Below, in pieces: positions 1,962 to 22,296 of a stretch of DNA of 22,296 bases (positions are counted from its first letter, which is position 1; the number at the start of each line of letters is the position of its first letter). The DNA comes from an uncultured Faecalibacterium sp. (GTDB taxonomy: Bacteria > Bacillota > Clostridia > Oscillospirales > Ruminococcaceae). The DNA is taken from NCBI GenBank assembly GCA_934518555.1, contig CAKSXW010000028.1, forward strand, positions 1-22,296. Reading direction: 5' to 3'. Below the pieces are notes generated by a model that searched no databases, was not told where the DNA came from, and worked only from the letters and a program-made list of their open reading frames with translations. The translations under genes and the position numbers were made by a program.

Positions 1962-1971
1962 CAAACACTGG

Positions 1972-2207: not shown

Positions 2208-2213
2208 GTTTGC

Positions 2214-2242: not shown

Positions 2243-2246
2243 TAGG
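2222..2246. promoter_or_regulatory. Candidate operator: inverted repeat over the metY promoter
   Basis: CCTATT (2222-2227) and AATAGG (2241-2246) form a perfect 6-bp inverted repeat with a 13-bp gap. It covers most of the spacer and all of the -35 box. The spacing between half-site centres is about 19 bp (roughly two helical turns), which fits a dimeric repressor. The regulator is unknown; a sulfur or amino-acid responsive repressor is a guess from the gene controlled. Confidence 0.45.
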
Positions 2247-6523: not shown

Positions 6524-6564
6524 GGCGTTTTCTCCTTTGCAACCATGTAATTTTATCCACTTTA

Positions 6565-6604
6565 ACTATAACACAACCCGGCAAAGGTTGCACCCTCTGC
6601 CGGG
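6565..6604 (-). promoter_or_regulatory. Possible promoter with upstream dyad for the ABC transporter operon
   Basis: A TATAGT (-10 candidate, 6570-6565) lies about 40 bp upstream of the ATPase start, without a recognisable -35. An 11-bp inverted repeat (CCCGGCAAAGG 6577-6587 with CCTCTGCCGGG 6594-6604, one wobble) occupies the place of the -35. It could be an activator or repressor site, or simply an RNA hairpin. Confidence 0.3.
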
Positions 6605-6625
6605 CAAATTTTCAAAAACTTAACA

Positions 6626-6660
6626 GAAAAACTCCCACTGCAACAGCGGCAGTGGGAGCT
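6626..6660 (-). terminator. Terminator of the secreted repeat protein gene
   Basis: A 10-bp stem (CTCCCACTGC 6632-6641 with GCAGTGGGAG 6649-6658) is followed on the minus strand by TTTTTCTGTT. It lies about 35 bp past the stop codon at 6694. Confidence 0.85.
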
Positions 6661-6693
6661 TTTGGATGCTTATGGAAATTCAGGAATTGGGGC

Positions 6694-7323: not shown

Positions 7324-7415
7324 GGTAAAATCCTCCTGTTTTTGCAGCCGGGGTCCGGCTGTGTTTTTCATGTTCTAGCAACCATGGTTTTTTGCGGCAG
7401 GGCTCTGAACCAGAA

Positions 7416-7448
7416 CCGCCGCATCTGTCTTGTAAACGGATGCGGCGG
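7416..7448 (-). terminator. Hairpin downstream of ftsH (weak terminator)
   Basis: A perfect 10-bp stem (CCGCCGCATC 7416-7425 with GATGCGGCGG 7439-7448) lies about 28 bp past the ftsH stop. The following minus-strand sequence (TTCTGGTTC) is a poor T-run, so termination may be partial. Confidence 0.45.
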
Positions 7449-7475
7449 CTGGATTATTGCAGGGAATGCAAAAAA

Positions 7476-9311
7476 TTATTCAGTTTTTTCTTCCTCGTTC
7501 AGGATGGCCATAAACTCCTCCCCGGTGATGGTCTCCTTTTCGTAGAGGAACTTGGCCAGCTGGTCCAGCTTGTCCCGGTTCTCGGTAAGGATCTGCAAAG
7601 CCTTGGCGTGCTGGGCCTTTACCAGCTCCACCACCTTCTGGTCGATCTCCCGCTGGGTCTGGGCAGAGCAGGCCAGGGAGGTGTCCCCTCCCAGGTATTG
7701 GTTGTTCACCGTTTCCAGGGCCACCATGTCAAAGTCCTGGCTCATGCCGTACCGGGTGATCATAGCCCGGGCCAGCTTGGTGGCCTGCTCGATGTCGTTG
7801 AAGGCTCCGGTGGTAACAGAGTGGAATACCAGTTCCTCGGCGGCACGGCCTCCGGTAAAGGTGGCGATCTTGTTTTCCAGCTCCGTCTGGTTCATCAGGT
7901 AGTGGTTGCCCTCGTCCACCTGCATGGTGTAGCCCAGGGCACCGGAGGTGCGAGGAATGATAGTGATCTTTTGCACCGGAGCCGAGTGGGACTGCTTGGC
8001 TGCCACCAGGGCGTGGCCGATCTCGTGGTAGGCCACGATGCACTTTTCCTGGTCCGTCAGGATGGAGTTCTTTTTCTGGTAGCCTGCAATGACCACCTCG
8101 ATGCTCTCCTCCAGGTCTGCCTGGGTCACGCTCTTGCGCCCGGCCCGTACCGCTCGCAGGGCGGCCTCGTTGACGATGTTGGCCAGCTCGGCACCGGAGG
8201 CACCAGAGGCCATGCGAGCCACGGTGTTAAAGTCCACCCCCGGGGCGATCTTTACCTTTTTGGCGTGGACCTTCAAAATTTCTTCCCGGCCCTTCAGGTC
8301 CGGCAGCTCCACCGGCACCCGGCGGTCAAAGCGGCCGGGACGGGTGAGAGCCGGGTCCAGGGAATCCGGGCGGTTGGTGGCTGCCAGGATGATGACCCCG
8401 GTGTTGCCCTCAAAGCCGTCCATCTCCGTCAGCAGCTGGTTCAGGGTCTGCTCACGCTCGTCGTTGCCGCCCAGGTTGCCGCTGTTGCGCTTCTGGCCAA
8501 TGGCGTCGATCTCATCAATGAACACGATGCAGGGGGCCTTTTCCTTGGCCTGCTTGAACAGGTCCCGGACCTTGGAGGCACCCATGCCCACAAACATCTC
8601 CACAAACTCAGAGCCGGAGATGGAAAAGAAGGGCACGTTGGACTCGCCTGCCACAGCCTTGGCCAGCATGGTCTTGCCGGTGCCCGGAGGGCCCACCAGC
8701 AGGATGCCCTTGGGCATGGAGGCACCGATTTCCTCATACTGCTTGGGGTCGTGGAGGTAGTTGACGATCTCTTGCAGGTTCTCCTTGGCCTCGTCCTCTC
8801 CGGCCACATCCGCAAAGCGGATGCCGTGGGTGGACTGCACATAGACCTTGGCGTTGGACTTGCCTGCGCCGCCAAACATCATGGCACCGGGGCCGCCGCC
8901 TGCCTTTTCCATGAGCTTTTTGTTCATCTGGTTGCCGATGAAGCTGAACAGCAGGATGGGCAGGGCAAACCAGATCAAAAAGCTCAGCACCGGGGAGCCC
9001 TGCTCCACGATCTCGCTGGAGAACTGGGCCCCGGCGTCGTAAAGACGCTGGGTCAGGCCCGGGTCGTTCATCAGGCCGGTCTTGTAGATCTGCTTTTCTT
9101 CTTTATCTGTGAACACGATCTGGTTGGACTGGATGTCCACCTTGCCGATGTTCTGCTGCTGGGTCATGCTCATAAAGGTGCCATAGTCCACTTCCTGGAC
9201 CTGACGCTCTGTGAGCCAGGGCACCAGCACCAGGTTCAGCACCAGCAGCACCAACAGCACGATGGCGTAGTAAATGGCCAGGGGCTTTTTGGATGGCTTG
9301 ACCTCTTTCAT
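7476..9311 (-). CDS. ftsH: ATP-dependent zinc metalloprotease FtsH
   Basis: Membrane-anchored AAA+ protease that degrades misfolded and regulatory membrane and soluble proteins; it works as a hexamer. The 611-residue protein has two N-terminal TMs (about 11-31 and 107-126) flanking a small extracytoplasmic domain. The AAA+ module follows, with Walker A GPPGTGKT (207-214), Walker B IVFIDE (262-267) and the second region of homology around [10 protein letters not shown]...RPGRFDR (311-330). The zinc site is HEIGH (429-433; HEAGH is usual, HExxH intact) with D506 in FNDIEQ as third ligand. ATG 9311 is preceded by AAGGAGGG. Length and order are standard. It is monocistronic or followed at low level by the secreted protein gene. 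Confidence 0.97.
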
Positions 9312-9370
9312 GGGGATCCCTCCTTATAAGAATGGGCCTGCTGATGCAGCAGAGCCCGGATGTCGGCTTC

Positions 9371-9376
9371 AGTATA
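9371..9376 (-). promoter_or_regulatory. Likely ftsH promoter (extended -10)
   Basis: Minus-strand TGTGCTATACT holds a TGN-extended -10 box (TATACT, 9376-9371) about 60 bp upstream of the ftsH start codon. No convincing -35 is visible. Confidence 0.45.
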
Positions 9377-9529
9377 GCACACCCCGGCACAGGGGGACAG
9401 CGGTTTGAGACCATGTTTCCAAAAACTTCGCAGTTTCTTAACAAAGAAAGCCCGGCATCTCCCTCAATCCTGCATGATTTTCCCGGTATTATTGTGAAAT
9501 TTTTTCATCTTTGTTATGAATGTTTCTTC

Positions 9530-9558
9530 TTGACAGTTTCTGGCAGACATGATAAAAT
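9530..9558 (+). promoter_or_regulatory. Promoter of the leucine operon
   Basis: TTGACA (9530-9535), a 17-bp spacer and TAAAAT (9553-9558). Transcription would begin near 9565, just ahead of the T-box leader. Confidence 0.85.
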
Positions 9559-9589
9559 GGACCCACTTTCTACAAAGTGCAAATGCGTT

Positions 9590-9873
9590 GACGGGGAAAA
9601 AACGATCTTCTTCTGTGTGCAGAGAGCCGCCGGGTGGTGCAAGGCGGTACAGAGGGTTTCGGATACTGGCCCCTGAGCGGCAGAGCTGAACCGGACAAGT
9701 AGGCTCTGACGGATGCCCACCGTTACCAGGGCAGCGATTCGCCGCAAGGCCGATCGTGCAAAGTGGCTGCGCCCCCGGCGCAGCAAAGAGAGTGGTACCA
9801 CGGGTGCCCTGTAAAAGATATTTGCAGGCTCTCGTCTCTCAAGGTTTTCGCCTTGAAAGACGGGAGCCTTTTT
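9590..9873 (+). ncRNA. T-box leader (tRNA-Leu, CUG specifier) of leuA
   Basis: Stem I closes AGAGCC (9623-9628) with GGCTCT (9702-9707) and has the characteristic GGTGGTGCAAGGCGGTA upper part and AAGTAGG before the closing strand. In the specifier loop GGATACTGGCCCCTGAG, CTG (9666-9668) is followed by the conserved purine, giving a leucine codon. The T-box antiterminator bulge TGGTACCACGGG starts at 9793; TGGT would pair with an ACCA-ended tRNA. The terminator follows: 19-bp stem 9826-9844 with 9851-9869 and a T-run to 9873. Uncharged tRNA-Leu would stabilise the antiterminator and switch the leu genes on. Confidence 0.93.
9826..9873 (+). terminator. T-box-controlled terminator
   Basis: The stem starts AGGCTCTCGTC and ends GACGGGAGCCT, with a TTTTCG loop region and TTTTT after it. 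It competes with the antiterminator at about 9788-9815. Confidence 0.9.
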
Positions 9874-9885
9874 GTATGCGGATAG

Positions 9886-9995
9886 CCCTTCAGGCATCTC
9901 TATGCGATGCCAGATTCCCCTTTTTGTCACCTACGGTGACATCTTCCCCCGGAACGGGGGAAGTCGGCCCTCTCGGGGGCGCCTTTGGGCAATGC
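9886..9995 (-). repeat. Palindromic intergenic repeat, copy 1 (inverted)
   Basis: Bases 9909-9963 are, with a few changes, the reverse complement of 11814-11866; both hold a CTTCCCCCG/CGGGGGAAG hairpin next to a TGTC/GACA hairpin and a GGGGAATCTGGC segment. Similarity extends weakly to both sides. The copy lies between the T-box terminator and leuA, inside the operon's 5' untranslated region. Confidence 0.75.
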
Positions 9996-10012
9996 CGCAA
10001 ACTTTACCGTAT

Positions 10013-10078
10013 TCCGGAAAGCCGTCCCCTTGGGGAAGGTGGATGCGAGTGAAACGAGCAGACGGAAGGGGTGCATTT
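10013..10078. repeat. Second short palindromic repeat before leuA
   Basis: The stretch carries TCCCCTTGGGGAAGGTGGATG and then GCAGACGGAAGGGGTGC, with CCCCTT/AAGGGG arms and an inner ACTCG-type stem near GCGAGTGAAACGAGC. It resembles the small GC-rich palindromes common in intergenic DNA of gut Clostridia (from memory, not searched). Confidence 0.5.
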
Positions 10079-10110
10079 TTATGCACCACAACATCAGGAG
10101 GACGCACATT

Positions 10111-11763
10111 ATGATGGACGCTACCAAGTACGCACCGGGATACTACCCGGTCCCTGCCGGCTACGACAGCTGGGTGAAAAAGGATCACATTGAAAAGGCC
10201 CCTGCCTGGTGCAGCGTGGACCTGCGAGACGGCAACCAGGCCTTGATTGTGCCCATGAACCTGGAAGAAAAGCTGGAGTTTTTCCAGATGCTGGTGAAGA
10301 TCGGCTTCAAAGAGATCGAGGTGGGCTTCCCGGCTGCCAGCGAGACCGAGTACGAGTTCCTGCGGACCCTCATTGAGAAGAATATGATCCCTGAGGACGT
10401 GACGGTGCAGGTGCTGACCCAGTGCCGGGACCACATCATCCGCCGCACCTTCGAGGCCGTGAAGGGTGCCCCCCGGGCGGTGATCCATTTCTACAACTCC
10501 ACCTCTGTGGCCCAGCGAGAGCAGGTGTTCCACAAGTCCAAGGCAGAGATCCAGCAGATCGCCATAGACGGTGCCAAGCTGGTCAAGCAGCTGAGCCAGG
10601 AGTACGAAGGCAACTTCCTGTTTGAGTACAGCCCCGAGAGCTTTACGGGCACCGAGGTGGATTACGCCGTAGAGGTGTGCAATGCCGTGCTGGACATCAT
10701 GCAGCCCACCCCGGACCGGCCCATGATCATCAACCTGCCGGTGACGGTGGAGATGAGTATGCCCCATGTGTATGCCAACCAGATCGAGTATTGCGATAAG
10801 CACCTGAAGTACCGGGACAGCGTCATCATCTCCACCCACCCCCACAACGACCGGGGCACCGGCGTAGCCTGTGCAGAGCTGGCGGTGCTGGCAGGAGCCC
10901 AGCGAGTGGAGTGCTGCCTGTTTGGCAACGGAGAGCGCACCGGCAACGTAGACGCCGTGACCCTGGCCATGAACCTGTACAGCCACGGGGTGGACCCCAA
11001 GCTGGACTTTTCGGATATGCCGGGCATCTGCGCCACCTACGAGCGTGTGACCCGGATGCCCATTTACCAGCGCAGCCCCTACGCCGGGCAGCTGGTGTTC
11101 GCCGCCTTCTCCGGCAGCCACCAGGACGCCATTGCCAAGGGCATGGCCTACCGCAAGGAACGGGGGGAGCACCGCTGGACCTGCCCCTACATCCCGGTGG
11201 ACCCCCACGACATCGGCCGCACCTACGACGCCGACGTCATCCGCATCAACAGCCAGAGCGGCAAGGGCGGCATCGGCTTTGTGCTGGAGCAGAACTACGG
11301 CTACAACCTGCCCCCCAAGATGCGTGAGGCCCTGGGCTACAAGGTCAAGGGCGTGTCGGACCACAGCCACAAGGAGCTGAGTGCCGGAGAGGTGCTGCAC
11401 ATCTTTGAGGACACCTTCCTGAACAAGGCTAAGCCCCTGTCGGTGGTGGAAGCCCACTTTGCCCAGACCAGCGGCATCACCGCCACCGTCACCCTGGAGC
11501 TGAACGGCCAGCAGAAGGTGGTCACCTCTGTGGGCAACGGCCGTCTGGACGCTGTGGCCAACGCCATCCAGAGTGCCACCGGCATGGACTTCCACCTGGA
11601 GACCTACTCGGAGCACAGCCTGGACCAGGGTTCCACCTCCCGGGCCGCCTCTTATGTGGGCCTGGTATGGGGAGACAACACTGTCACCTGGGGTGCCGGC
11701 ACCGACACCGATATCATCGTGGCCGGCATCAAGGCCCTGGTCAGTGCCATCAATAATAAGTAA
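10111..11763 (+). CDS. leuA: 2-isopropylmalate synthase (long, 550-residue type)
   Basis: Condenses acetyl-CoA with 2-ketoisovalerate to give 2-isopropylmalate, the first committed step to leucine. The HMGL-like TIM barrel begins near SVDLRDGNQAL (catalytic R39-D40) and has the metal-binding STHPHNDRG (H243, H245). The C-terminal third (about 430-550) is the LeuA regulatory domain that senses leucine. The length and KAPAWCSVDLRDGNQA place it in the longer LeuA class also found in yeast and actinobacteria. Start ATG 10111 follows AGGAGG (10096-10101) with a 9-nt spacer; an upstream extension of the frame to 9985 is repeat sequence and lacks an SD. It is the first gene of the leuACDB operon, under T-box control and probably leucine feedback. 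Confidence 0.95.
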   Translation: MMDATKYAPGYYPVPAGYDSWVKKDHIEKAPAWCSVDLRDGNQALIVPMNLEEKLEFFQMLVKIGFKEIEVGFPAASETEYEFLRTLIEKNMIPEDVTVQVLTQCRDHIIRRTFEAVKGAPRAVIHFYNSTSVAQREQVFHKSKAEIQQIAIDGAKLVKQLSQEYEGNFLFEYSPESFTGTEVDYAVEVCNAVLDIMQPTPDRPMIINLPVTVEMSMPHVYANQIEYCDKHLKYRDSVIISTHPHNDRGTGVACAELAVLAGAQRVECCLFGNGERTGNVDAVTLAMNLYSHGVDPKLDFSDMPGICATYERVTRMPIYQRSPYAGQLVFAAFSGSHQDAIAKGMAYRKERGEHRWTCPYIPVDPHDIGRTYDADVIRINSQSGKGGIGFVLEQNYGYNLPPKMREALGYKVKGVSDHSHKELSAGEVLHIFEDTFLNKAKPLSVVEAHFAQTSGITATVTLELNGQQKVVTSVGNGRLDAVANAIQSATGMDFHLETYSEHSLDQGSTSRAASYVGLVWGDNTVTWGAGTDTDIIVAGIKALVSAINNK

Positions 11764-11777
11764 AGAAGGAAAACCTG

Positions 11778-11893
11778 CCCTCTCATGCAAAAAGCTCCCC
11801 CTGAGAGGAAAGACTTCCCCCGCTCCGGGGGAAGATGTCGCACAGCGACAAAAGGGGGAATCTGGCAATGCCGCAAGGCATTGACTGAGAGGG
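11778..11893 (+). repeat. Palindromic intergenic repeat, copy 2 (reference copy)
   Basis: A 116-bp element bounded by CCCTCTCA (11778-11785) and TGAGAGGG (11886-11893), an 8-bp inverted terminal repeat. Inside are the CTTCCCCCG/CGGGGGAAG hairpin, a GTCGC/GCGAC hairpin and GCAATGCCGCAAGGCATTG. It has no coding capacity and fills almost the whole leuA-leuC gap. The layout is MITE-like. Confidence 0.8.
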
Positions 11894-11919
11894 TTTTGAG
11901 TAAAAAGGAGAAAACTACC

Positions 11920-13179
11920 ATGGGAATGACCCTGACGCAGAAGATCCTTGCCGCACACGCCGGGCTTGCCGAGGTCAAGGCAGGCCAGCTCATCAACGCA
12001 AAGTTGGACATTGTGCTGGGCAACGACATTACCACCCCGGTGGCCATCAACGAGTTTGAACGAGCCGGGTTCGACCGGGTGTTTGACAAGGAGCACATCG
12101 CTATCGTGCTGGACCACTTTGTGCCCAACAAGGATATCAAGAGCGCTACCCAGTCCAAGCAGTGCCGGGAGTTTGCCAACCAATACGATATCCTGAACTT
12201 TTACGATGTAGGCCAGATGGGCATTGAGCACGCCCTGCTGCCGGAAAAAGGCATCGTCACCGCCGGAGACTGCGTTATCGGTGCCGACAGCCACACCTGC
12301 ACCTACGGTGCCCTGGGGGCCTTTTCCACCGGCGTAGGCTCCACGGATATGGCCGCTGGCATGGCCACCGGCATGGCCTGGTTCAAGGTGCCCTCTGCCA
12401 TCCGGTTCGTGCTTACCGGCAAGCTGGGGCCCCGGGTGTCCGGCAAGGACCTGATCCTCCACATCATCGGCATGATCGGGGTGGACGGTGCTCTGTACAA
12501 GTCCATGGAGTTCACCGGGCCGGGTGTGGCAAGCCTGACCATGGAGGACCGCCTGTGCATCTGCAACATGGCCATTGAGGCCGGAGCCAAAAACGGCATC
12601 TTCCCGGTGGACCAGGTCACCAAGGCCTATCTGGAAGGCCGCAGCCAGCGGCCCCCGGTGTTCTACGAGGCAGACCCTGACGCCGAGTACGAGCAGACCA
12701 TTGAGATCGACCTGAGCACCCTGGAGCCCACCGTCAGCTACCCCCACCTGCCGGAGAACACCCACAAGGCCAGCGAGGGCAGCAGCATTAAGATCGATCA
12801 GGTGGTCATCGGCAGCTGCACCAACGGCCGCCTGGAGGACATGGAGGCCGCCTACCACATCCTGAAGGGCAAGCACATTGCCAAGGGTGTCCGGGGCATC
12901 ATCATCCCGGCCACCATGGCAGTGTACAAGGAGTGCATCCTCCGGGGCTGGACCACCGCCTTTATCGACGCTGGCTGCATCGTGTCCACCCCCACCTGCG
13001 GCCCCTGCCTGGGCGGCTACATGGGCATCCTGGCTGCCGGGGAACGCTGCGTTTCCACCACCAACCGCAACTTTGTGGGCCGCATGGGCCATGTGGACAG
13101 CGAGGTATATCTGGCCTCCCCTGCCACTGCCGCCGCCAGTGCCCTCACCGGCTACATCACCGACCCTCGCCAGGTCTGA
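11920..13179 (+). CDS. leuC: 3-isopropylmalate dehydratase large subunit (short, archaeal/HACN type)
   Basis: With LeuD it isomerises 2-isopropylmalate to 3-isopropylmalate through an aconitase-type [4Fe-4S] centre. At 419 residues it belongs to the short class, not the roughly 465-residue E. coli type. The cluster ligands are C300 in [10 protein letters not shown] and C360/C363 in [26 protein letters not shown] (121-135) is the conserved active-site strand. ATG 11920 follows AAGGAG (11905-11910) with a 9-nt spacer; the frame is open upstream through the repeat element but that part is not used. leuD follows after 18 bp. Confidence 0.95.
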
Positions 13180-13197
13180 CCTGAAAGGAGCACTCCC

Positions 13198-13680
13198 ATG
13201 AACGCAAACGGTTCTGTTTTTAAATACCCGGACAACGTGGACACCGACGTCATCATCCCGGCCCGGCACCTGAACACCCAGGATGCCAAGGAGCTGGCCA
13301 GCCACTGCATGGAGGATATCGACCCCACCTTCGTGACCAAGGTGCAGCCCGGGGACATTATGGTAGGGGGCTGGAACTTTGGCTGCGGCTCCTCCCGGGA
13401 GCACGCCCCCCTGTGCATCAAGACCGCCGGCATCTCAGTGGTCATCGCCAAGAGCTTTGCCCGGATCTTCTACCGCAACAGCATCAACATCGGCCTGCCC
13501 ATTCTGGAGTGCCCGGAGGCCGCCGATGCCATCCAGGCCGGGGACCGGGTCCATGTGGACTTTGACACCGGCGTCATTACCGACCAGACCACAGGCCAGA
13601 CCTTCCAGGCCCAGCCTTTTCCGCCCTTTATCCAGGAGATCATTTCTGCTGGAGGCCTCATGAAGGCTATCAAGAAATAA
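13198..13680 (+). CDS. leuD: 3-isopropylmalate dehydratase small subunit
   Basis: Swivel-domain partner of LeuC. The 160-residue length matches the short archaeal-type subunit. [13 protein letters not shown] (13-25) and [11 protein letters not shown] (61-71) are the substrate-binding motifs, and the product-side [14 protein letters not shown] segment is present. ATG 13198 follows AAAGGAG. It lies 18 bp after leuC, consistent with equal synthesis of the two subunits. Confidence 0.95.
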
Positions 13681-13683
13681 ACC

Positions 13684-13760
13684 CCCTCAGCCTCACTTCG
13701 TTCGGCAGCTCCCCCAAGGGGGCGCCTTATAGCAATGCCGCAGGCATTGACTGAGAGGGT
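13684..13760 (+). repeat. Palindromic intergenic repeat, copy 3 (short)
   Basis: Shares GCAATGCCGCAGGCATTGACT followed by GAGAGGG with the end of copy 2, in the same orientation, and starts with CCCTCAGCC, close to a mirrored terminus. The middle differs (CTCCCCCAAGGGGGCGCC). It fills most of the leuD-leuB gap. Confidence 0.75.
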
Positions 13761-13784
13761 CCAAGCCCATAAAAGGAGTACCTC

Positions 13785-14858
13785 ATGGAAAAAAACATTG
13801 CCGTCATCTGGGGCGATTGCTCCAGCCCAGAGATCGTAAAGCAGGCCCTCCGGGTCCTTGACAAGGTGGCTGAAAAATACGGCCACACCTTCCACTACAC
13901 CGATGCTGCCATGGGCGGCGAAGCCATTGACAAATACGGGGACCCCCTGCCCCAGCAGGAGCTGGACAAGTGCCTGGCTGCCGACAGCGTACTGCTGGGT
14001 GCCGTAGGCGGCCCCAAGTGGGAGGGCCTGCCCGGAGAGCAGCGGCCGGAAAAAGGCCTGCTGCGGCTGCGAGCCGGTATGGGGCTCTACGCCAACAACC
14101 GTCCGGCCAAGATCTGGCCCCAGCTGGCCCCTGCCAGCCCCCTGAAGCCGGAGATCGTGGCAAAGGGCATCGACCTGCTCATTGTCCGGGAGCTCATCGG
14201 CGGCGTCTACTTTGGTCAGCACACCACCCACACCCTGGAAAACGGTGAAAAGCAGGCCGTGGACACCATGCCCTATGCAGAGCACGAGATCGAACGCATT
14301 GGCCGCATCGGCTTTGAGACCGCACGCAAACGCCGCAAAAAGCTGTGCTGCGTGGACAAGGCCAACGTGCTGGACACCAGCCGTCTGTGGCGTACCGTAA
14401 TGCATCGGCTCCAGGCAGAGTACCCGGACGTGGAATACTCCGAGATGTTCGTGGACAACTGCACCATGCAGCTGGTAAAGGACCCGGCCCAGTTCGACGT
14501 TATCGTCACCGAGAATATGTTCGGAGACATCCTCTCCGACGAGGCCTCCATGATCACCGGCTCCATCGGCATGATCCCCTCCTCCAGCCTGGGGGAGGGC
14601 ACCCGGGGCCTCTACGAGCCCATCCACGGCTCTGCTCCGGACATTGCCGGTAAGGATGTGGTAAACCCCACCGCCTGCATCCTGTCCGCCGCCATGATGC
14701 TGCGGTACTCCTTTGGCCTGGCCGCAGAGGCCGACGCCATTGAGAACGCCGTCGGCAAGGTGCTGGACAAGGGCCTGCGTACCGCCGACAACATGAGCGA
14801 GGGCTGCACCTGCCTGGGCTGCTCCGCCATGGGCGACGCCATCCTGGCAGAGATCTGA
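13785..14858 (+). CDS. leuB: 3-isopropylmalate dehydrogenase
   Basis: Oxidises and decarboxylates 3-isopropylmalate to 2-ketoisocaproate using NAD+. The 357 residues have normal family length. Motifs include [20 protein letters not shown], the catalytic lysine in [26 protein letters not shown] (metal and NAD binding), and [14 protein letters not shown]. Two points are odd. The N-terminal loop, normally GDGIGPE, reads GDCSSPE (residues 10-16). After YFG comes [11 protein letters not shown] instead of the usual EPRG-type stretch. ATG 13785 follows AAAAGGAG. It is the last gene of leuACDB and is followed by a terminator. The identity is supported by the operon; other members of the isocitrate/isopropylmalate dehydrogenase family are less likely. 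Confidence 0.93.
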
Positions 14859-14867
14859 GATTCAAAC

Positions 14868-14906
14868 AAAAAAGATGCAGCCCACACTGTGAGCTGCATC
14901 TTTTTA
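14868..14906. terminator. Bidirectional terminator between leuB and upp
   Basis: A 13-bp stem (AAAAAGATGCAGC 14869-14881 with GCTGCATCTTTTT 14893-14905) carries T-runs on both strands and ends both the leu operon and the minus-strand tsaE-upp operon. Confidence 0.92.
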
Positions 14907-14922
14907 TTGTTTCAGGCCTATT

Positions 14923-15549
14923 TTACTTGGTGCCGTAGATACGATCGCCGGCATCGCCCAGGCCGGGGACGATGTAGCCGTTCTCGTTCAGGTGGTCATC
15001 CTGTGCGCCCAGGTAGATGTCCACATCGGGGTGAGCCTCGTGGAGGGCCTTGATGCCTTCCGGTGCGCCCAGCAGACCGATGAACTTGATGCGCTTTGCG
15101 CCACGGCTCTTGATCTGGGTGATGGCGTCAATGGCACTGCCGCCGGTAGCCAGCATGGGGTCCAGCACCAGCACATCACGCTCGGCAATGTCCTGGGGCA
15201 GCTTGCAGAAGTACTCCACAGGCTGCAGGGTGGTCTCGTCACGGTACAGGCCGATGAAGCCCACCTTGGCAGCAGGCAGCAGGGTCAGCATACCGTCCAG
15301 CATACCCATGCCTGCACGGAGGATGGGCACCAGAGCCAGCTTGCGGCCTGCCAGCACCTTGGTGCGAGCCATGGTGATGGGGGTCTCGATCTCTACCTCC
15401 TCCAGAGGCAGGTCACGGGTGGCCTCGTAGCACAGCAGAGTGGCAACCTCGCCCACGAGGTCACGGAACTCCTTGGTGCCGGTCTGTTTGTTCCGCAGCA
15501 GGCTGATCTTGTGCTGCAGCAGGGGATGCTCAACGATCATGGGGGTCAT
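14923..15549 (-). CDS. upp: Uracil phosphoribosyltransferase
   Basis: Salvage enzyme making UMP from uracil and PRPP. The 208 residues match the family. Visible are the PRPP-binding loop [14 protein letters not shown] (126-139), [11 protein letters not shown] (76-86) and the uracil-binding C-terminal [19 protein letters not shown] 15549 follows TAAGGAGCG; the second ATG four codons in is a poorer fit to the SD. It is the last gene of the tsaE-tsaB-rpiB-upp run, 47 bp after rpiB. Confidence 0.97.
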
Positions 15550-15596
15550 AAAAACACGCTCCTTATTTTGAATAGATCACTCTATCGGGTACATTA

Positions 15597-16043
15597 TCAG
15601 CGATTTTCCAGGGCGGTCAACTTGTCGATGCGGCGCTGATGACGGCCGCCCTCAAACTCGGTGTTCAGGAACAGGTCCACCAGCTGGCAGGCAAGGCCTG
15701 CACCCACCACACGGCCGCCCATGCACAGGGCGTTGGCGTCGTTGTGGCGGCGGGTGTACTCACAGCTGAAGCTGTCGGAGCAGCAGCAGGCACGGATGCC
15801 CTTGATCTTGTTGGCTGCCATGCTGATGCCTACGCCGGTGCCGCAGAACAGCAGTGCCTTGTCGCACTGGCCGCTGACCACAGCGTCGCAGGCAGGCACT
15901 GCCATATCGGGGTAATCCACGCTGTCGGTGCTGTGGGTGCCAAAGTCGATATACTCCAGCCCCAGCTCCTCCAGGTGTGCCTTAACGGCTTCCTTCAGTT
16001 CAAATCCGCCATGGTCGGCGGCCAATGCGATGGGTTTTGCCAT
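15597..16043 (-). CDS. rpiB: Ribose-5-phosphate isomerase B
   Basis: Interconverts ribose 5-phosphate and ribulose 5-phosphate. The 148-residue protein shows the LacA/RpiB signatures: ALAADHGGFELK (D10-H11), LLFCGTGVGISMAANK (catalytic C67) and RRHNDANALCMGGR (H100, N101). The start MAKPIALAADHGG at 16043 is preferred over the upstream ATG at 16127 because AAAGGA stands nine bases before it and the extra N-terminus would run into tsaB. Ribose-P supply for PRPP is a plausible reason for the pairing with upp. Confidence 0.95.
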   Translation of the reverse strand: MAKPIALAADHGGFELKEAVKAHLEELGLEYIDFGTHSTDSVDYPDMAVPACDAVVSGQCDKALLFCGTGVGISMAANKIKGIRACCCSDSFSCEYTRRHNDANALCMGGRVVGAGLACQLVDLFLNTEFEGGRHQRRIDKLTALENR

Positions 16044-16083
16044 GAAAGTGGGTCCTTTCCCTGTGATACACAGTTCAGATTTT

Positions 16084-16794
16084 TTATTCAGCTCGGGCTG
16101 CGGCCTGGGCGGCAAGACGCTCGGCACGCTCCCGTTCAGCCTGGCTCAGGCGGTGGTAATCCGGCAGCAGGGCCTCCGGCAGAACAGTCTGCCCGGCATT
16201 GGCCATCTGCCGGGCCACCAGGGCCACCGCAGCGGCCCGGCCGCCCCGCAGAGCCGGGGGCGTTTCCAGCACGCCCGGCACACTGCCGTATTTATTATAG
16301 CACAGAGATGCCCCATCACCAACAAAAAACAGAGGCTTTTTGCAATTTTCTACAAATTGGGCCAGATCCGCCACAGCCCGGGCGTCGTCCTCCAGCAGCC
16401 GCTGGTGGGTGGCCAGGTCAAAGGCGGCACTGTACACCTGGGCCCGTCGGGCGTCCAGGGCGCAGAGCACCGTGCCCTCTCCCGTGTGGGCCGCTGCCAG
16501 GGCCTCCAGGGTGGACACCGGGGCACACAGGGTCTCCCGGGGGAAGGCCAGCCCCTTGACGGCGGCCAGACCGATCCGCAGGCCCGTAAAGCTGCCGGGC
16601 CCGGCGTTGACCCCGAACAGGTCGATGTCGGCGCAGCTCAGACCACAGGTCTTTAAGCAGGTGTCGATCATGGGCATCAGGGTCTCGCTGTGGGTCATGC
16701 CGGCGTCCAAGTACACCTCGTACAGCAGTCGGTCGTCCTGCATCAGGGCCACTCCGGCGGTCTTTCCGGCGGTATCCACGGCCAGGATCTTCAT
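16084..16794 (-). CDS. tsaB: tRNA t6A biosynthesis protein TsaB
   Basis: Partner of TsaD in threonylcarbamoyl transfer to A37 of ANN-decoding tRNAs. The 236 residues have the ASKHA-like N-terminus MKILAVDTAGKTAGVAL, the hallmark GPGSFTGLRIGLAAVKGLA (66-84) and the C-terminal LLPDYHRLSQAERE. The start overlaps the tsaE stop by ATGA (16794-16791), so translation is coupled. Gene order tsaE-tsaB is common in Firmicutes; tsaD is not in this window. Confidence 0.95.
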   Translation of the reverse strand: MKILAVDTAGKTAGVALMQDDRLLYEVYLDAGMTHSETLMPMIDTCLKTCGLSCADIDLFGVNAGPGSFTGLRIGLAAVKGLAFPRETLCAPVSTLEALAAAHTGEGTVLCALDARRAQVYSAAFDLATHQRLLEDDARAVADLAQFVENCKKPLFFVGDGASLCYNKYGSVPGVLETPPALRGGRAAAVALVARQMANAGQTVLPEALLPDYHRLSQAERERAERLAAQAAARAE

Positions 16795-17216
16795 AGCTCC
16801 ACCCCCTCAATGGTGATCTTACGGGTCGTTTCGTCCACCCGTTCGATGTTTACCCGGATAGGCTGCTCCAGGGCCAGCAGGTCCGCAAAGTTCTCGCTCC
16901 ACTCTGCTGCCACGATGGCCCCCTGGTCCAGGTAATCGTAGAACCCGGCGGCGCACAGATCGTTCTCGGTGGAGATGCGGTACAGGTCAAAGTGGGCCAG
17001 AGGCCGGGGGCCCCGGTAATAGTTCACAATGGCAAAGGTGGGGCTGCTTACCGGGTCGGTGCAGCCCAGACCCTGGGCCAGCCCCTCGGTAAAGGCGGTC
17101 TTGCCTGCCCCCAAGCCGCCGGTATAGGCGATGAGGGCACCGGGCTGCAGCACCGCTGCCATGCGCCGGCCCAGGGCCACCGTCTCAGCCCGGGAATGGG
17201 TGGTATATTCCGACAT
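16791..17216 (-). CDS. tsaE: tRNA t6A biosynthesis ATPase TsaE
   Basis: Small P-loop ATPase of the TsaBDE complex. The 141 residues contain Walker A GGLGAGKTAF (33-42), VSSPTFAIVNYY (56-67), and LAHFDLYRI (73-81), all typical. ATG 17216 is preceded by GAGGTGATC, a modest SD. First gene of the minus-strand operon; the transcript seems to begin with a terminator-like hairpin (17238-17267). Confidence 0.95.
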   Translation of the reverse strand: MSEYTTHSRAETVALGRRMAAVLQPGALIAYTGGLGAGKTAFTEGLAQGLGCTDPVSSPTFAIVNYYRGPRPLAHFDLYRISTENDLCAAGFYDYLDQGAIVAAEWSENFADLLALEQPIRVNIERVDETTRKITIEGVEL

Positions 17217-17236
17217 TGAAGATCACCTCGTAACAA

Positions 17237-17268
17237 CAAAAAAGGGATGACAGCATTCTGCCATCCCC
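17237..17268 (-). terminator. Terminator-like hairpin in the tsaE leader
   Basis: On the minus strand GGGATGGCAG (17267-17258), a 4-nt loop and CTGTCATCCC (17253-17244; one mismatch) are followed by TTTTTTG. The hairpin begins only a few bases after the predicted transcription start and about 20 bp before the tsaE start codon. No minus-strand gene lies directly upstream that would need it. Confidence 0.65.
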
Positions 17269-17269
17269 T

Positions 17270-17298
17270 AGTATAGTATATTTTTTGTAAAAGCGCAA
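17270..17298 (-). promoter_or_regulatory. Promoter of the tsaE-tsaB-rpiB-upp operon
   Basis: TTGCGC (17298-17293), a 17-bp spacer and TATACT (17275-17270) on the minus strand. Confidence 0.65.
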
Positions 17299-17366
17299 TG
17301 CCCGGCTTTGGGGCCCCTGCATGGCTGGTATGTAAAACTGATATCAGCCGCCGCCCCAAAACAGGC

Positions 17367-17372
17367 TATAAT
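17367..17372 (+). promoter_or_regulatory. -10 box for the DUF1275 gene
   Basis: A perfect TATAAT (17367-17372) without a good -35. Transcription would start near 17379, giving a leader of about 20 nt before the TTG start at 17398; this rules out the ATG at 17308. Confidence 0.55.
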
Positions 17373-17397
17373 AGAGGGCGAAAAGAAGGTGCTGGAA

Positions 17398-18195
17398 TTG
17401 AAGACTGATCATCACGGACAAATGTCCGAGTCCTTTCTCACGGCTGTGTTCCTGTCCCTGTCCGGCGGACTGCAGGATGCCTATACCTACCTGTTCCGGG
17501 GTAAGGTTTTTGCCAACGCCCAAACCGGCAACATCGTGCTGCTGAGTGCCAACCTGATGGACGGTCAATGGGACCGGGTGCTCCATTACCTGGTGCCCCT
17601 GTGCGCCTTTGCCCTGGGAGTGCTGGCGGCAGAGCAGCTCCGGGAGCGGTTCCAGGCTTTGCAGCGGCTCCACTGGCGGCAGTTGGTGGTGCTGGGGGAG
17701 GTAGTGCTGCTGTTCCTGGTGGGCTTTTTGCCCCAGGAGCAAAATCTGCTGGCCAATGCCCTGGTGTCCTTTTGCTGCGCCATGCAGGTGCAGGCCTTCC
17801 GGAAGGTAGAGGGCTACGCCTTTGCCAGCACCATGTGCATCGGGGACCTGCGGAGCGGCGTGGAGGCCCTTTACATCTGGCGCAAGACCCACCAGCCCCA
17901 GGCCCGGGACCGGATGCTGCGGTACTTTGGCATCATCCTGCTGTTTGCCCTGGGGGCCGGGCTGGGCAGCAAAGGCACCGGGGTCCTGGGGGGCCGAGCC
18001 ATCTGGGCCTCCTGCGGCTTTTTGCTGGTGAGCTTTGCCCTTATGTTCATCCGGGAGGACCTGGAGGAGAACCCGGTGATCGAAAAGGACCTTTCTGCCA
18101 TCCGGCAGGAGACCCGGGATATCGACCGGGCCCTGAAACAGGAGCTGCAAGACCAGCACCAGGAGCTGAAGCAGAGCATGGAGCCCCACAAGTAA
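17398..18195 (+). CDS. DUF1275 (YoaK-family) integral membrane protein
   Basis: Membrane protein of unknown function. The family hallmark GGLQDAYTYLFRGKVFANAQTGNIVLL lies near the N-terminus (about 23-49). Hydrophobic segments follow at about 65-80, 98-115, 116-128, 180-196 and 205-220, and the C-terminus is a charged helical tail (about 225-265; IRQETRDIDRALKQELQDQ) unusual in its length for the family. The start is uncertain: TTG 17398 has AGAAGG eight bases upstream and fits the promoter, while ATG 17422 lacks an SD. That gives 265 or 257 residues. It converges with the LysR gene, leaving only 6 bp between stop codons. Confidence 0.82.
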   Translation: MKTDHHGQMSESFLTAVFLSLSGGLQDAYTYLFRGKVFANAQTGNIVLLSANLMDGQWDRVLHYLVPLCAFALGVLAAEQLRERFQALQRLHWRQLVVLGEVVLLFLVGFLPQEQNLLANALVSFCCAMQVQAFRKVEGYAFASTMCIGDLRSGVEALYIWRKTHQPQARDRMLRYFGIILLFALGAGLGSKGTGVLGGRAIWASCGFLLVSFALMFIREDLEENPVIEKDLSAIRQETRDIDRALKQELQDQHQELKQSMEPHK

Positions 18196-18201
18196 GGCAG
18201 C

Positions 18202-19098
18202 TTATCGGTGAGAGGCCTTGGTGAGCATCTGCTGGAACTTCCGGGCAGCGGTGTTCAGGGGGCGGTGGTTGTCGTAGACCAGGCAGATGGACCGGGAGGG
18301 GATGATCTCCTGCAGGTGCAGCTGCACCAGGCTCCCCTGTTCCAGCAGGCCCTTTACCATGGGTTCCGGCACAAAGGCCATGCCCAGCTCGCTTTTTACC
18401 AGGGTCAGCATCTGGTCGGTGGTGGCAGCCTCGATATCCGGCTTCAGCACTGCCCCGTGGTCCAAAAAGAACTGCCGGTAAAAGCTGCGGGTCATGCTGG
18501 CCTCGCTGAGGCTGATCAGGGGGTAGTGGGCCAGTTCCTTTAAGGAAAGGCTCTGGCTGGCCAGGGCCGTAAAAGTCCTGCCCCCCACCAGCACCTCATA
18601 AAAGGGCTTCAGCTCCACCACCTTCAGCCCCTGCTCTGCCTCTGCCGGGGTGGTGACGATGGCAAAATCCACCTCGCCGTTTTTCACCGCCTGCACCGCC
18701 TGGGGGGTGGAGTGGTTGGCGATGCGGAGCCGGATGCCCGGGTATTCGGTGTGGAAATCCCGGAGCTTTTCCGACAGGTAGATGTTCAGGGCCGTCTCGG
18801 TGGTGCTGATGCTGATGGCCCCGTGTTCCAGGGTGGCGCTGGCACTCAGCTCCTCCTCTGCGTCCTGGATCTGCACCGCCGCCGAGGCGATCCGGGAGTA
18901 CAGCATCTCCCCCTCCGGCGTCAGGGTCACTCCTCGGTTGGAGCGGATGAACAGCACGCAGTTCAGCTGGCTTTCCAGCCGGTTCATGGCGTGGGTGATG
19001 TTGGGCTGGTTATTGCCCAGCACCCGGGCTGCCCGGGTAAAGTTCTGGTACTTTGCCACATAATAAAAGATCTTATAGTATTCCCAGTCCACATACAT
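18202..19098 (-). CDS. LysR-family transcriptional regulator
   Basis: 298 residues, the standard LTTR length. The N-terminal winged helix-turn-helix covers about 1-60 (FYYVAKYQNFTRAARVLGNN, then MNRLESQL and GVTLTPEGEML); an effector-binding periplasmic-binding-protein fold covers about 90-290. ATG 19098 follows AAAGGGG about ten bases upstream; the frame extends further to 19293 but that part lies in the divergent purA promoter. LTTRs often regulate the divergent neighbour, here purA-pyrB, and a dyad lies in the shared intergenic region. The effector is unknown. Confidence 0.9.
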   Translation of the reverse strand: MYVDWEYYKIFYYVAKYQNFTRAARVLGNNQPNITHAMNRLESQLNCVLFIRSNRGVTLTPEGEMLYSRIASAAVQIQDAEEELSASATLEHGAISISTTETALNIYLSEKLRDFHTEYPGIRLRIANHSTPQAVQAVKNGEVDFAIVTTPAEAEQGLKVVELKPFYEVLVGGRTFTALASQSLSLKELAHYPLISLSEASMTRSFYRQFFLDHGAVLKPDIEAATTDQMLTLVKSELGMAFVPEPMVKGLLEQGSLVQLHLQEIIPSRSICLVYDNHRPLNTAARKFQQMLTKASHR

Positions 19099-19140
19099 GG
19101 AACAGCATCCCCTTTCATACCAAAAGTACATCGTGACCAT

Positions 19141-19160
19141 GTGTACAATACTTTTTACAC
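19141..19160. promoter_or_regulatory. Candidate LysR operator over the purA -35 box
   Basis: GTGTA (19141-19145) and TACAC (19156-19160) form an inverted repeat with a 10-bp gap in the LysR-purA intergenic region. The right arm overlaps the purA -35 hexamer. A TACA/TGTA pair (19127-19130 with 19142-19145, N11 gap) is interleaved with it. Confidence 0.4.
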
Positions 19161-19182
19161 ATTCTCTCTCTGCTCGTATAAT
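19154..19182 (+). promoter_or_regulatory. Promoter of purA-pyrB
   Basis: TTTACA (19154-19159), 17-bp spacer, TATAAT (19177-19182). The leader to the purA start is about 50 nt. Confidence 0.8.
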
Positions 19183-19237
19183 AACACTGCGATCCGGAAT
19201 TGCAAGAGGGAAATCAAAAAAGAAGGTATCGAAGAAT

Positions 19238-20539
19238 ATGTTGACCGCAGTGACTGGAATCAATTGGGGCGATGAGGGCAAAGGCCGTGTCATCGACCTG
19301 CTGGCAGAGCACGCCGACGTGGTGGCCCGTTATCAAGGAGGCAACAACGCCGGGCACACCGTGGTGACGGACCAAGGCAAGTTCGTTCTGAACCTGCTGC
19401 CCTCCGGCATCCTGCACCCGGAGGTGACCTGTGTGCTGGGTGCCGGCATGGTCATCGACCTGGACCACCTGGCCAAAGAAATGGACGCCATTGAAGAACA
19501 GGGCGTAAAGGTAGGCCCTGAGAACCTGAAGCTCTCGGACAAGGCCACCATCTCCATGCCCTGGCACAAGGTGCAGGATGAGCTGGAGGAGGACCGTCTG
19601 GCCCGGGAGAACCGGGCCTTTGGCTCCACTCGCCGGGGCATCGCCTACGCCTACAGTGACAAATACCGCAAAAAGACCCTGCGTCTGGGGGACCTGCTGC
19701 ACCTGGACGAAAAACGGGTCCAGGACCGTCTGGCCATGATCCTGGAATCCAAGAATCTGGAGCTGGCAGGCTGCTACCACCAGGAGCCCATGAGCTACGA
19801 CGCACTGCTGGAGTGGTGCCGGGAGCAGGCCGGGCAGTTTGCTCCGTACATCTGCGATGTGGGGGCCTTCCTGCAGCAGGCCCACGACAGCGGCAAGCGC
19901 ATCGTGCTGGAAGCCCAGCTGGGTGCCATGCGGGATATCGACTACGGCATCTTCCCGTTTACCTCCAGCTCCAATACGCTGGCGGCCTATGCACCGCTGG
20001 GGGCTGGCATCCCCAACTGCAAGCTGGACCATGTAGTGGGCGTGCTGAAAGCCTACTCCACCTGCGTGGGTGCCGGCCCCTTTGCGGCCGAGAACGCCAT
20101 GGGCGAGGTGTGGAACGAGCAGCTGCGTAAGGCAGGCGGCGAGTACGGTGCCGCCACCGGCCGCCCGCGCCGGGTGGGCCCCTTTGACTGTGTGGCCAGC
20201 CGCTATGGCCTTGCCATGCAGGGTGCCGACAAGATCGCCCTGACCAAGCTGGACGTGCTCAGCAGCCTGAAGGAGATCCCGGTCATCACCGGTTACAAGC
20301 TGGACGGTGTGGAGGTCCCCACCTTCGACCCGCTGTCCGACCTGGACCGTGTGGAGCCGGTGGTCACCATGCTGCCCGGCTGGGAGCAGGATATTTCCGG
20401 CTGTACCAGCTGGGACGAGCTTCCCGAAGCAGCAAAGAACTATGTGCAGTTCCTGGAAAAGCAGCTGGACCATGAGATCCAGTTCGTTTCCACCGGTGCC
20501 GAGCGCGAGAAGTTCGTGTTGAAAGGAGCATGGCTGTGA
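19238..20539 (+). CDS. purA: Adenylosuccinate synthetase (divergent)
   Basis: GTP-dependent ligation of IMP and aspartate, the first step from IMP to AMP. The 433 residues match the family length. Conserved parts: GDEGKGR (11-17), RYQGGNNAGHT (31-41), KAYSTCVGAGPF (271-282), TGRPRR (307-312), TKLDVL (336-341) and LPGW. Departures from the usual sequence: RRGIAYAY (132-139) where GRGIGPAY is typical, and EAQLGA (225-230) where EGAQG is typical. ATG 19238 is chosen because AGAAGG lies 11 bases upstream and the ligase begins there; the frame is open back to 19097 across the promoter. pyrB overlaps its stop codon. The 3' part of the gene (from about 20,166) differs in CGCG content from the 5' part. 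Confidence 0.9.
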   Translation: MLTAVTGINWGDEGKGRVIDLLAEHADVVARYQGGNNAGHTVVTDQGKFVLNLLPSGILHPEVTCVLGAGMVIDLDHLAKEMDAIEEQGVKVGPENLKLSDKATISMPWHKVQDELEEDRLARENRAFGSTRRGIAYAYSDKYRKKTLRLGDLLHLDEKRVQDRLAMILESKNLELAGCYHQEPMSYDALLEWCREQAGQFAPYICDVGAFLQQAHDSGKRIVLEAQLGAMRDIDYGIFPFTSSSNTLAAYAPLGAGIPNCKLDHVVGVLKAYSTCVGAGPFAAENAMGEVWNEQLRKAGGEYGAATGRPRRVGPFDCVASRYGLAMQGADKIALTKLDVLSSLKEIPVITGYKLDGVEVPTFDPLSDLDRVEPVVTMLPGWEQDISGCTSWDELPEAAKNYVQFLEKQLDHEIQFVSTGAEREKFVLKGAWL

Positions 20540-21483
20540 GACATTTCATTGAACCGAACAGCTTTTCACGGAACGAGCAGCTGGCCCTGCTGGATCTTGC
20601 CGACCGGATGGAAGCAAACCCCGCACCCTACGCCCACCTGTGCGACGGGCGCATCCTGGCCACCCTGTTCTATGAGCCGTCCACCCGCACCCGGCTTTCT
20701 TTCGAGTCGGCCATGCTGCGGCTGGGCGGCAAAACGCTGGGCTTTGCAGGGGCACAGCTTTCTTCCGCCAGCAAGGGCGAGACGGTGGAGGACACCGCCC
20801 GCGTGGTGAGCAACTACGCCGACGTCATCGCCATGCGCCACCCCAAGGAGGGGGCCCCGCTCCGGGCGTCCCGGTATGCCCGCGTGCCGGTCATCAATGC
20901 GGGCGATGGCGGCCACGCGCACCCCTCCCAGACCATGATCGACCTGATGACCATCCGTCAGCGCAAGGGGCGGCTGGATCATTTGACCATCGGCTTCTGC
21001 GGCGACCTCAAGTTCGGCCGGACGGTCCACTCCCTGACCGCCGCGCTGAGCCAGTTTGAGGGCAATCGCTTTGTGTTCATCTCGCCGGAGGACCTGCGCC
21101 TGCCCCGCTACGTCAAGACCGAATCGCTGGAGCCCACCCATCAGGTCTACACCGAGACCGATGATCTGGAAGCGGAACTGCCCCATCTGGATGTGCTGTA
21201 CATGACCCGCATCCAGCAGGAGCGCTTCTTCAACGAGGAAGAGTATCTTCGCCTGAAGGGCTGCTACCAGCTGGACGAAGCCATGCTGCGGCTGGCCCCG
21301 GCGGATATGCCGGTGCTGCATCCGCTGCCCCGCATTGACGAGATCAGCACCGACGTGGACAACGACCCCCGCGCCGCCTACTTTGACCAGGTGCACAACG
21401 GTGTCTACATCCGCATGGCCATCATCCTGGCCCTGCTGGGCATCCCGGACCCGGTAACTGGTAAGGAGGTGCTGGAGGGCTGA
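20536..21483 (+). CDS. pyrB: Aspartate carbamoyltransferase catalytic subunit
   Basis: Makes N-carbamoyl-aspartate in de novo pyrimidine synthesis. The chain (315 residues) has the carbamoyl-phosphate loop FYEPSTRTR (45-53), the SASKGETVEDT loop (SxxK), GDGGHAHPSQTMIDL, the CGDLKFGRTVHSL aspartate-domain motif and HPLPRIDEIS. Start choice: AAAGGAG (20522-20528) is one base from the ATG at 20530 but seven bases from the GTG at 20536, so GTG is preferred. It then overlaps the purA stop as GTGA, a translational-coupling arrangement. No pyrI follows. The gene holds five of the seven CGCG tetranucleotides of the right part of the window. Confidence 0.95.
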   Translation: MRHFIEPNSFSRNEQLALLDLADRMEANPAPYAHLCDGRILATLFYEPSTRTRLSFESAMLRLGGKTLGFAGAQLSSASKGETVEDTARVVSNYADVIAMRHPKEGAPLRASRYARVPVINAGDGGHAHPSQTMIDLMTIRQRKGRLDHLTIGFCGDLKFGRTVHSLTAALSQFEGNRFVFISPEDLRLPRYVKTESLEPTHQVYTETDDLEAELPHLDVLYMTRIQQERFFNEEEYLRLKGCYQLDEAMLRLAPADMPVLHPLPRIDEISTDVDNDPRAAYFDQVHNGVYIRMAIILALLGIPDPVTGKEVLEG

Positions 21484-21613: not shown

Positions 21614-22296
21614 TCAGCTGCGGTATTCTGCCGGCAGCTGGTCCAGGGTCTGCCACTTGGTCATGGCATCTTCCAGGGTCATGCCCTTTTCCACCGCATC
21701 CCGGCGGCAGGCGTTGACGGCCTGGATCTCCTTCATCTTGGCACCAGTCAGGGTGTAGCCCTTCATGGCGATGAGGGTAGCGGTCCAGGCGATCATGGGG
21801 ATGAGGCAGAACAGCACGATGACCACCCAGTTCATGCCCGGGGTGTAGGGGTCATACTGGGTAGGCAAGCTCTGCAGTCCCACAAAGCTGACGGCAATGC
21901 CCACCACGGTAGCGGACAGGCTGGACACCAGCTTGTCCACCAGGCTGAACAGGGTGCCCATGATGCCGGGGATGTAGTTGCCGCTGCGGTAGGTCTCGTA
22001 GTCGGAGCAGTCGGCCACCATGGGGATAGGCATATCGGCGGTGGCGTAGTAAGCGCCGTAGCCGATGCCGAAGAAGGCAATGAACAGGATGGTGTACAGG
22101 TTGATGGACAGGCCCTTCTCCCCCAGGATGGACAGGGTGAAGGCATCGCCACGACCCCACAGCAGCAGCAGTACCAGCACGCCCACATAGCACAGCAGTG
22201 CCACCCGGACATACTTTACCAGGCTGGCCTTCTGGCCCTCCTTCTGGCTGGTGCGGACGGTGAGCAGGAAGAAGGGCACGCTGAACACATAGCCCA
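21614..22296 (-). CDS. GPH-type sugar:cation symporter, C-terminal part (runs off the right edge)
   Basis: About 226 residues of the C-terminal half are in the window; the 5' end lies beyond 22296. Several TM helices are visible (VRVALLCYVGVLVLLLL; INLYTILFIAFFGIGYGAYY; ATVVGIAVSFVGL; WVVIVLFCLIPMIAWTATLIA). MPIPMVADCSDYETYRSGNYIPGIMGTLFSLVDKL is the signature region of the glycoside-pentoside-hexuronide (MelB/GusB-like) family, with MVADCSDYE where D(Y/W)xE is conserved. The tail after the last TM (ALTG..., EKGMTLEDAMTKWQTL) is cytoplasmic. The transported sugar cannot be named. Confidence 0.85.
   Translation of the reverse strand, partial: GYVFSVPFFLLTVRTSQKEGQKASLVKYVRVALLCYVGVLVLLLLWGRGDAFTLSILGEKGLSINLYTILFIAFFGIGYGAYYATADMPIPMVADCSDYETYRSGNYIPGIMGTLFSLVDKLVSSLSATVVGIAVSFVGLQSLPTQYDPYTPGMNWVVIVLFCLIPMIAWTATLIAMKGYTLTGAKMKEIQAVNACRRDAVEKGMTLEDAMTKWQTLDQLPAEYRS

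Follow-up and report, generated by a model that had tools for sequence, protein, structure and literature searches.

Avoidance of CGCG and other short words in a Faecalibacterium lineage, and a purA-pyrB tract in which two of these words reappear

The window, i.e., the whole 22,296-base stretch of DNA analysed here, carries a gene set typical of Faecalibacterium: leuA-leuC-leuD-leuB, ftsH, upp, rpiB, tsaB-tsaE, genes for a DUF1275 protein and a LysR regulator, purA, and pyrB. Ten proteins were scanned against Pfam and the remaining names were obtained by reading the translations; among the genes nameable in this way, no restriction or methylation gene was found. A T-box leader (RF00230) lies upstream of leuA at 9579-9842. 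Toward the right end, the DUF1275 gene (17308..18195, + strand), which lies near lysR-purA-pyrB in several relatives, is followed by the gene for a LysR-type regulator (18202..19293, - strand), adjoining purA and of native composition. Next come purA itself (adenylosuccinate synthetase, PF00709; 19238..20539, + strand; 433 amino acids from the likely start), pyrB (aspartate carbamoyltransferase, PF02729 and PF00185; 20530..21483, + strand), and a fragment of an MFS-type sugar transporter gene (21614..22288, - strand). The four genes from DUF1275 to pyrB (17308-21483) are clustered in several relatives too, and many of the relatives with this cluster have an additional purA and pyrB elsewhere that are more distant. 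At the opposite end, the unstranded intergenic DNA (1..459) consists of a mosaic of short repeats (1-78 and about 200-320), with copies at multiple positions in other genus members and in fecal contigs deposited as phage. Three human fecal GenBank records labelled "Bacteriophage sp." (L237, L238, and L239) contain stretches 83-88% identical to the window's genes for a Cys/Met metabolism enzyme or the MFS transporter, and may therefore be bacterial in part.

Because the best orthologues of the compared genes are 84-93% identical in DNA (in the 13 genus genomes with the most aligned columns), the species is absent from the 31 genus genomes searched, and the window is best assigned, on sequence grounds, to an unsampled Faecalibacterium lineage, known from these 22 kb only. 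For the FtsX gene, the best orthologue in the same 13 genomes reaches only 80.5% DNA identity. The window's PyrB shares 94% identity with its counterpart in Faecalibacterium sp. I4-3-84, and 89-93% with those of five further Faecalibacterium isolates. No same-species sequence was found in the 31 genus genomes, the GTDB-species contigs, IMG/VR, or the phage and plasmid collections.

CGCG occurs nine times in the window, at 330, 350, 20166, 20504, 20800, 20881, 20916, 21042, and 21370, against a maximal-order Markov expectation of 48; over the first 20 kb it stands at 0.05 of expectation. A recount of all nine sites reproduced exactly what an earlier note on this DNA had claimed, namely these positions, the 19.8-kb gap, and the seven copies that follow within 1.2 kb. 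The first two sites lie in the left intergenic DNA, together with one CCCGC at 348. The long native background that follows (460..20159, unstranded) has 0 CGCG and 8 CCCGC, is depleted in RGCGCY and GCGC, and holds CCWGG at chance. The remaining seven fall in the island, comprising the 3' part of purA and all of pyrB (20160..21483, + strand), where CGCG and CCCGC are near the level of other Faecalibacterium. Since proteins and codon usage constrain words, synonymous codons were permuted within each gene while protein and codon usage were kept (1,000 codon-preserving shuffles). The 5,726 codons outside the island contain 0 CGCG versus 49.6 expected (range 36-65); the 444 codons inside it contain 7 versus 10.3 expected, with 102 of the 1,000 shuffles as low.

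Comparison with relatives gives the same contrast. A site was counted as consensus if CGCG is present in half or more of the relatives aligned there (three or more). Of such sites, 0 of 63 survive in the window outside the island and 3 of 3 inside; when 14 relatives are each treated in this way, 52-84% of 19-61 sites survive per relative. Within the window, the earlier proposal that the host lineage avoids CGCG is strongly supported by this comparison. In pooled stretches of the 31 genus genomes (7-60 kb each, a small part of a genome), CGCG stands at 0.38-0.96 of expectation, and CCCGC at no less than 0.95 in all 31 pools. Single short genus pieces reach a CGCG ratio of 0.1-0.16; short pieces L125 and L128 (of G026 and G028) have 2 CGCG versus 18-19 expected, and for L014, 11.5 kb from a chicken-gut assembly, the count is 8 versus 50.5. 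Complete CGCG loss over 20 kb was found in the window only, among the genus sequences compared. Depletion at this strength is thus lineage-specific, though milder CGCG avoidance recurs in the genus.

Other words are avoided as well. Words of 4-6 bases were compared in columns aligned with relatives, with sums over pairwise columns in which a single place may enter as many as 14 times. Among the most strongly depleted outside the island were CGCG (0 vs 701 in relatives), CCCGC (66 vs 773), AGCGCC (22 vs 262), TGCGCA (0 vs 122), and CTCTTC (0 vs 99); relative by relative, the window has 2-7 CCCGC in the aligned columns where the relatives have 30-87. Against the codon-preserving shuffles, the same DNA holds 7 CCCGC versus 54.2 expected, 6 RGCGCY versus 45.5, and 35 GCGC versus 98.7. 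Signals for TGCGCA (0 vs 3.3 expected, 25 of 1,000 shuffles as low) and CTCTTC (0 vs 6.9, 1 of 1,000 as low) are weaker than for the main words. CTCTTC is also rare in the G002 (1 vs 13) and G022 (2 vs 10) pools, possibly as an avoided word that these have in common with the window. The earlier note had argued that GCGC occurs throughout and that the avoidance is therefore specific to CGCG. GCGC is indeed present, with 56 copies in the window; specificity does not follow, since GCGC, CCCGC, and RGCGCY are avoided too. In summed pairwise columns with the 14 relatives, GCGC stands at 0.24 of the relatives' level outside the island (317 vs 1,322) and at 0.80 inside it (112 vs 140). CCWGG is at chance in the window (171 vs 170), and in the same columns nine of 14 close relatives have 0-4 copies where the window has 47-134, the remaining five having 10-29 where it has 55-121.

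One palindromic word, CGCG, and one asymmetric word, CCCGC, mark the same island. CCCGC, or its complement GCGGG, occurs 12 times between 20164 and 21368 and nine times in the rest of the window, the copy at 348 lying beside a left-end CGCG; the shuffles gave 8.3 expected for the 12 inside. The first island CGCG, in purA (20166..20169, unstranded), is overlapped by the CCCGC at 20164, and the last, in pyrB (21370..21373, unstranded), is accompanied by a CCCGC at 21368. RGCGCY stays low inside (1 vs 3.5 expected) and does not mark the island, while TGCGCA and CTCTTC are too rare to show its presence or absence. Island CCWGG is also low (5 vs 9.6 expected, 8 of 1,000 shuffles as low), a weak hint that might suit a donor partly avoiding this word, such as G002 or G019.

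Composition was also scored over 300-base segments with an order-3 Markov model, trained without the scored neighbourhood and set against two groups of relatives. Outside the island, the mean was +3.8 nats per 300 bases with the first group (31 of 196 segments negative, minimum -4.8) and +3.2 with the second (38 of 196 negative). The score turns negative from about 20.0-20.2 kb, has its low of -15.5 in pyrB, and returns to positive values at 21,301, i.e., composition changes sharply at both tract ends, with sign changes at about 20.0-20.2 and 21.2-21.4 kb. About 20.1-21.4 kb is thereby marked as relative-like, with one native-like segment (20,201-20,500, +2.6) inside. Masking CGCG, CCCGC, and CCWGG leaves the island at -12.7 per 1.3 kb, versus a minimum of -13.4 in the rest (184 windows of that size), which is extreme but within range; the words therefore carry most of the island signal.

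Judging from lost and kept sites together with the score, the left edge would lie between about 19,990 and 20,163 and the right edge between 21,373 and about 21,600. The composition switch falls near purA residue 310, beside a strongly conserved stretch, in agreement with the earlier placement of the island start near codon 310 and of its end with pyrB. The left edge adjoins a long PurA stretch that is one residue off the nearest protein among the matches listed, and this conserved stretch would be a natural place for a crossover. On the other side, the right edge sits at or after the pyrB end, where synteny with relatives ends too. To the right of pyrB, 684 bases hold 0 CGCG versus 2-4 in three orthologous stretches, which themselves have 0-1 CCCGC; since these orthologues hold few sites, the missing ones are modest evidence for native DNA resuming there. 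The transporter fragment has 0 CGCG and 0 CCCGC, and its score is mostly native-like.

A search for the donor returned nothing above about 88% DNA identity over the tract, in the 31 genus genomes by DNA and in the GTDB-species contigs and IMG/VR by PyrB. The IMG/VR contig L165 encodes a PyrB that is 95% identical, but its DNA identity is 85%; an exact 40-base word from the window had no match in IMG/VR, and the phage and plasmid collections gave just orthologues at 73-88% or short repeats. Protein searches with PurA and PyrB return representatives of 90% clusters, among which a recurrence of the same chimeric gene is invisible. Identity to relatives is flat across the edge, at 95% or less in any 200-base window, and the mean DNA divergence between window and relatives, divided by that among relatives, is 1.07 in the island versus 1.13-1.24 in five other genes, a small difference. 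Gene trees, suggested earlier as a check, show no shift of the window between the core (9 rows) and the island (12 rows), since in both it joins between the same pair of groups; in the purA-5' tree it is nearest G002 and G033 with weak support (59-77). No relative stands out as closer inside the island than in its flanks, and we therefore infer import from word content only. The earlier claim that the purA 3' end and pyrB were imported is accordingly favoured in part, by the two words, the GCGC and CpG levels, and the composition score, and finds no backing in the trees or in DNA identity. A donor, if any, would be unsampled, its distance from known species being about equal to the recipient's.

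The manner in which sites were lost bears on the cause of the avoidance. Among the 63 lost CGCG sites, 53 changes are synonymous in the codons touched, 8 are nonsynonymous, and 2 are unclassified. Deamination of cytosines methylated by an orphan methyltransferase, without restriction, could in principle have removed CGCG, and CACG, one expected product, accounts for 9 of the 63. The commonest outcomes are nevertheless the transversions CCCG and CGGG (28 of 63), and transitions make up just 12 of 47 single-step losses, versus 33 of 55 in four relatives' own losses. Losses that are mostly synonymous transversions argue for selection against the word and against methyl-cytosine decay, which we consider very improbable. 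A codon-pair or CpG bias of the lineage would likewise dispense with restriction, the island still being imported, with normal bias. CpG falls to 0.79 of the relatives' level outside the island, matching that level inside, and ACGT, TCGA, GCGAC, and CCGAA in the outside DNA also fall under shuffle expectation, with ACGT and TCGA indicating that some wider CpG bias is mixed in. As the main cause, however, such a bias seems improbable given how word-specific the pattern is: CGCG is zero, yet CCGG exceeds its shuffle expectation outside the island (230 vs 180); CCGG and CCG are not reduced versus relatives, despite bearing CpG; and AGCGCC stands at 0.08 of relatives where GGCGCA (0.69) and AGCGCA (0.61) are only mildly reduced. 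Type II restriction-modification, acting as the selective force, accounts best for the avoidance.

For the island, the least credible account is that its seven sites cluster by chance or are held by functional constraint. Seven of nine uniformly placed points fall within 1.2 kb with a frequency of about 5e-6, i.e., in one draw of 200,000, and 12 CCCGC cluster at the same place. Site 20504, as CGCG in 11 of 12 aligned relatives, might be constrained, but the other six are CGCG in only 2 to 10 of 11-13. All seven are CGCG in at least two aligned relatives, with each differing in at least one, and because they vary in this way most appear to be usual genus sequence under no strong constraint. The main rival is an assembly chimera, in which the assembler, working on a mixed gut sample, would have switched to a different Faecalibacterium strain within the conserved purA and back after pyrB; the avoidance would then be real and the import not. 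The contig may be a metagenome record, and near the left edge close relatives are 86-92% identical. The DUF1275-lysR-purA-pyrB module is joined to tsaE, an order not seen in relatives, where the two are at least 34 kb apart on one contig or lie on different contigs. Moreover, native composition to the right of pyrB rests on 0.8 kb, with orthologues that offer few sites for comparison. Against this, the assembler would have had to switch twice if native DNA follows pyrB, as the score and missing CGCG there suggest; the junction with the new neighbours, at 17.2-17.3 kb, is surrounded by native-type DNA, away from the composition edges; and the island has no close match in any sampled strain. We regard a chimera as unlikely, if a good deal less so than the other alternatives.

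CGCG is cut by the Type II systems FnuDII, ThaI, AccII, and BstUI, and CCCGC is the recognition word of FauI; the words recognized by these enzymes are the window's two most avoided. The ThaI family (PF15514) was found in 0 of 31 genus genomes, the window's own not among them, in a search whose only responding control was below the cut-off. A mosaic housekeeping gene, produced by import of a tract through homologous recombination, is likewise a known kind of event. The island resembles such tracts in having an edge inside a gene, in its length of about 1.3 kb, and in that orthologous sequence is replaced; it differs from those with an identified donor in that it was detected by word content, with no donor found. 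Rusinov et al. (2015, PMC4687349) link orthodox Type II systems to host avoidance of palindromic and asymmetric sites, an avoidance that grows with a system's residence time and may outlive it. The window, with strong depletion of short palindromic and asymmetric words, is like the Type II avoidance covered there. It differs in the absence of CGCG over 19.8 kb, in the several words affected together, and in the one tract that breaks the pattern.

Restriction-driven word avoidance in an unsampled lineage, followed by a recent recombination tract from a Faecalibacterium without that pressure, is in our judgement the probable explanation of these observations. The lineage would long have been counter-selected against short words, chiefly CGCG and CCCGC, most likely through orthodox Type II restriction-modification systems, carried now or formerly, that cut those words. 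Ordinary, mostly synonymous substitutions would have removed the sites until none (CGCG) or few (CCCGC) were left. A tract of about 1.3-1.6 kb, from about purA codon 310 to the pyrB end, would then have been swapped in by homologous recombination from the donor, recently enough that its sites have not been purged again.

Comparable avoidance of other words is found across the genus. CCWGG is at or below 0.11 of expectation in 10 of 31 genus genomes, at 0.26-0.63 in seven, and at 0.71 or above in 14 (13-60 kb each); it is nearly absent (0.01-0.11) from the sampled stretches of G001, G003, G004, G005, G008, G010, G022, G024, G032, and G033. In 400 kb each of G010 (L262-L281) and G022 (L242-L261), there are 115 CCWGG versus 1,158 expected (0.10) in one and 81 versus 1,210 (0.07) in the other, with GGWCC at 0.25 and 0.37 of expectation. 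Further words are rare in G010 (GTCGAC, 1 vs 87 expected; GAGCTC, 7 vs 140; GGGCCC, 9 vs 153) and in G022 (CTACAG, 11 vs 134; TCCGGA, 17 vs 133; GAAGAC, 22 vs 140), in 400 kb each. The 800 kb of these two genomes contain 11 CCWGG clusters (at least three sites with gaps of 1 kb or less), viewed as possible import islands. Three of the G010 clusters and one of the G022 clusters fall within rRNA genes, and a second G022 cluster is adjacent to that one. Genes at the remaining clusters include those for an alpha/beta hydrolase, a C39-type exporter, an HTH regulator, an aldolase, and acyl-CoA metabolism. The EcoRII-C profile, used to look for a gene behind CCWGG avoidance, matched 0 of 31 genus genomes, and no control either. 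Since genus members avoid differing words, lineages seem to carry their own restriction fingerprints, for which we propose CGCG, CCCGC, RGCGCY, and perhaps TGCGCA and CTCTTC in the window, and CCWGG, GGWCC, GTCGAC, and more in others. More tentatively, and somewhat short of an even expectation, every Faecalibacterium lineage might have its own set of scrubbed words, breaks in which would map and date core-gene recombination even with an unsampled donor.

No description of the present case was found in the open-access literature on avoidance or on Faecalibacterium restriction, methylomes, or recombination, as judged from the title and start of the abstract among the matches listed, with subscription journals largely outside this coverage. 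The palindrome-avoidance literature includes a paper on plasmids and restriction (PMC10359461), and that on Faecalibacterium restriction-modification and recognition sites includes a review on genetic manipulation. Avoidance of restriction sites is itself a known phenomenon; what the window shows is its completeness for one word across 19.8 kb and its extension to several words at once. A tract that breaks two words together hints, whatever the donor, at recent recombination in this important gut commensal. The avoided words also suggest what restriction systems may be present in such lineages, a practical help for introducing DNA into harmless commensals for study.
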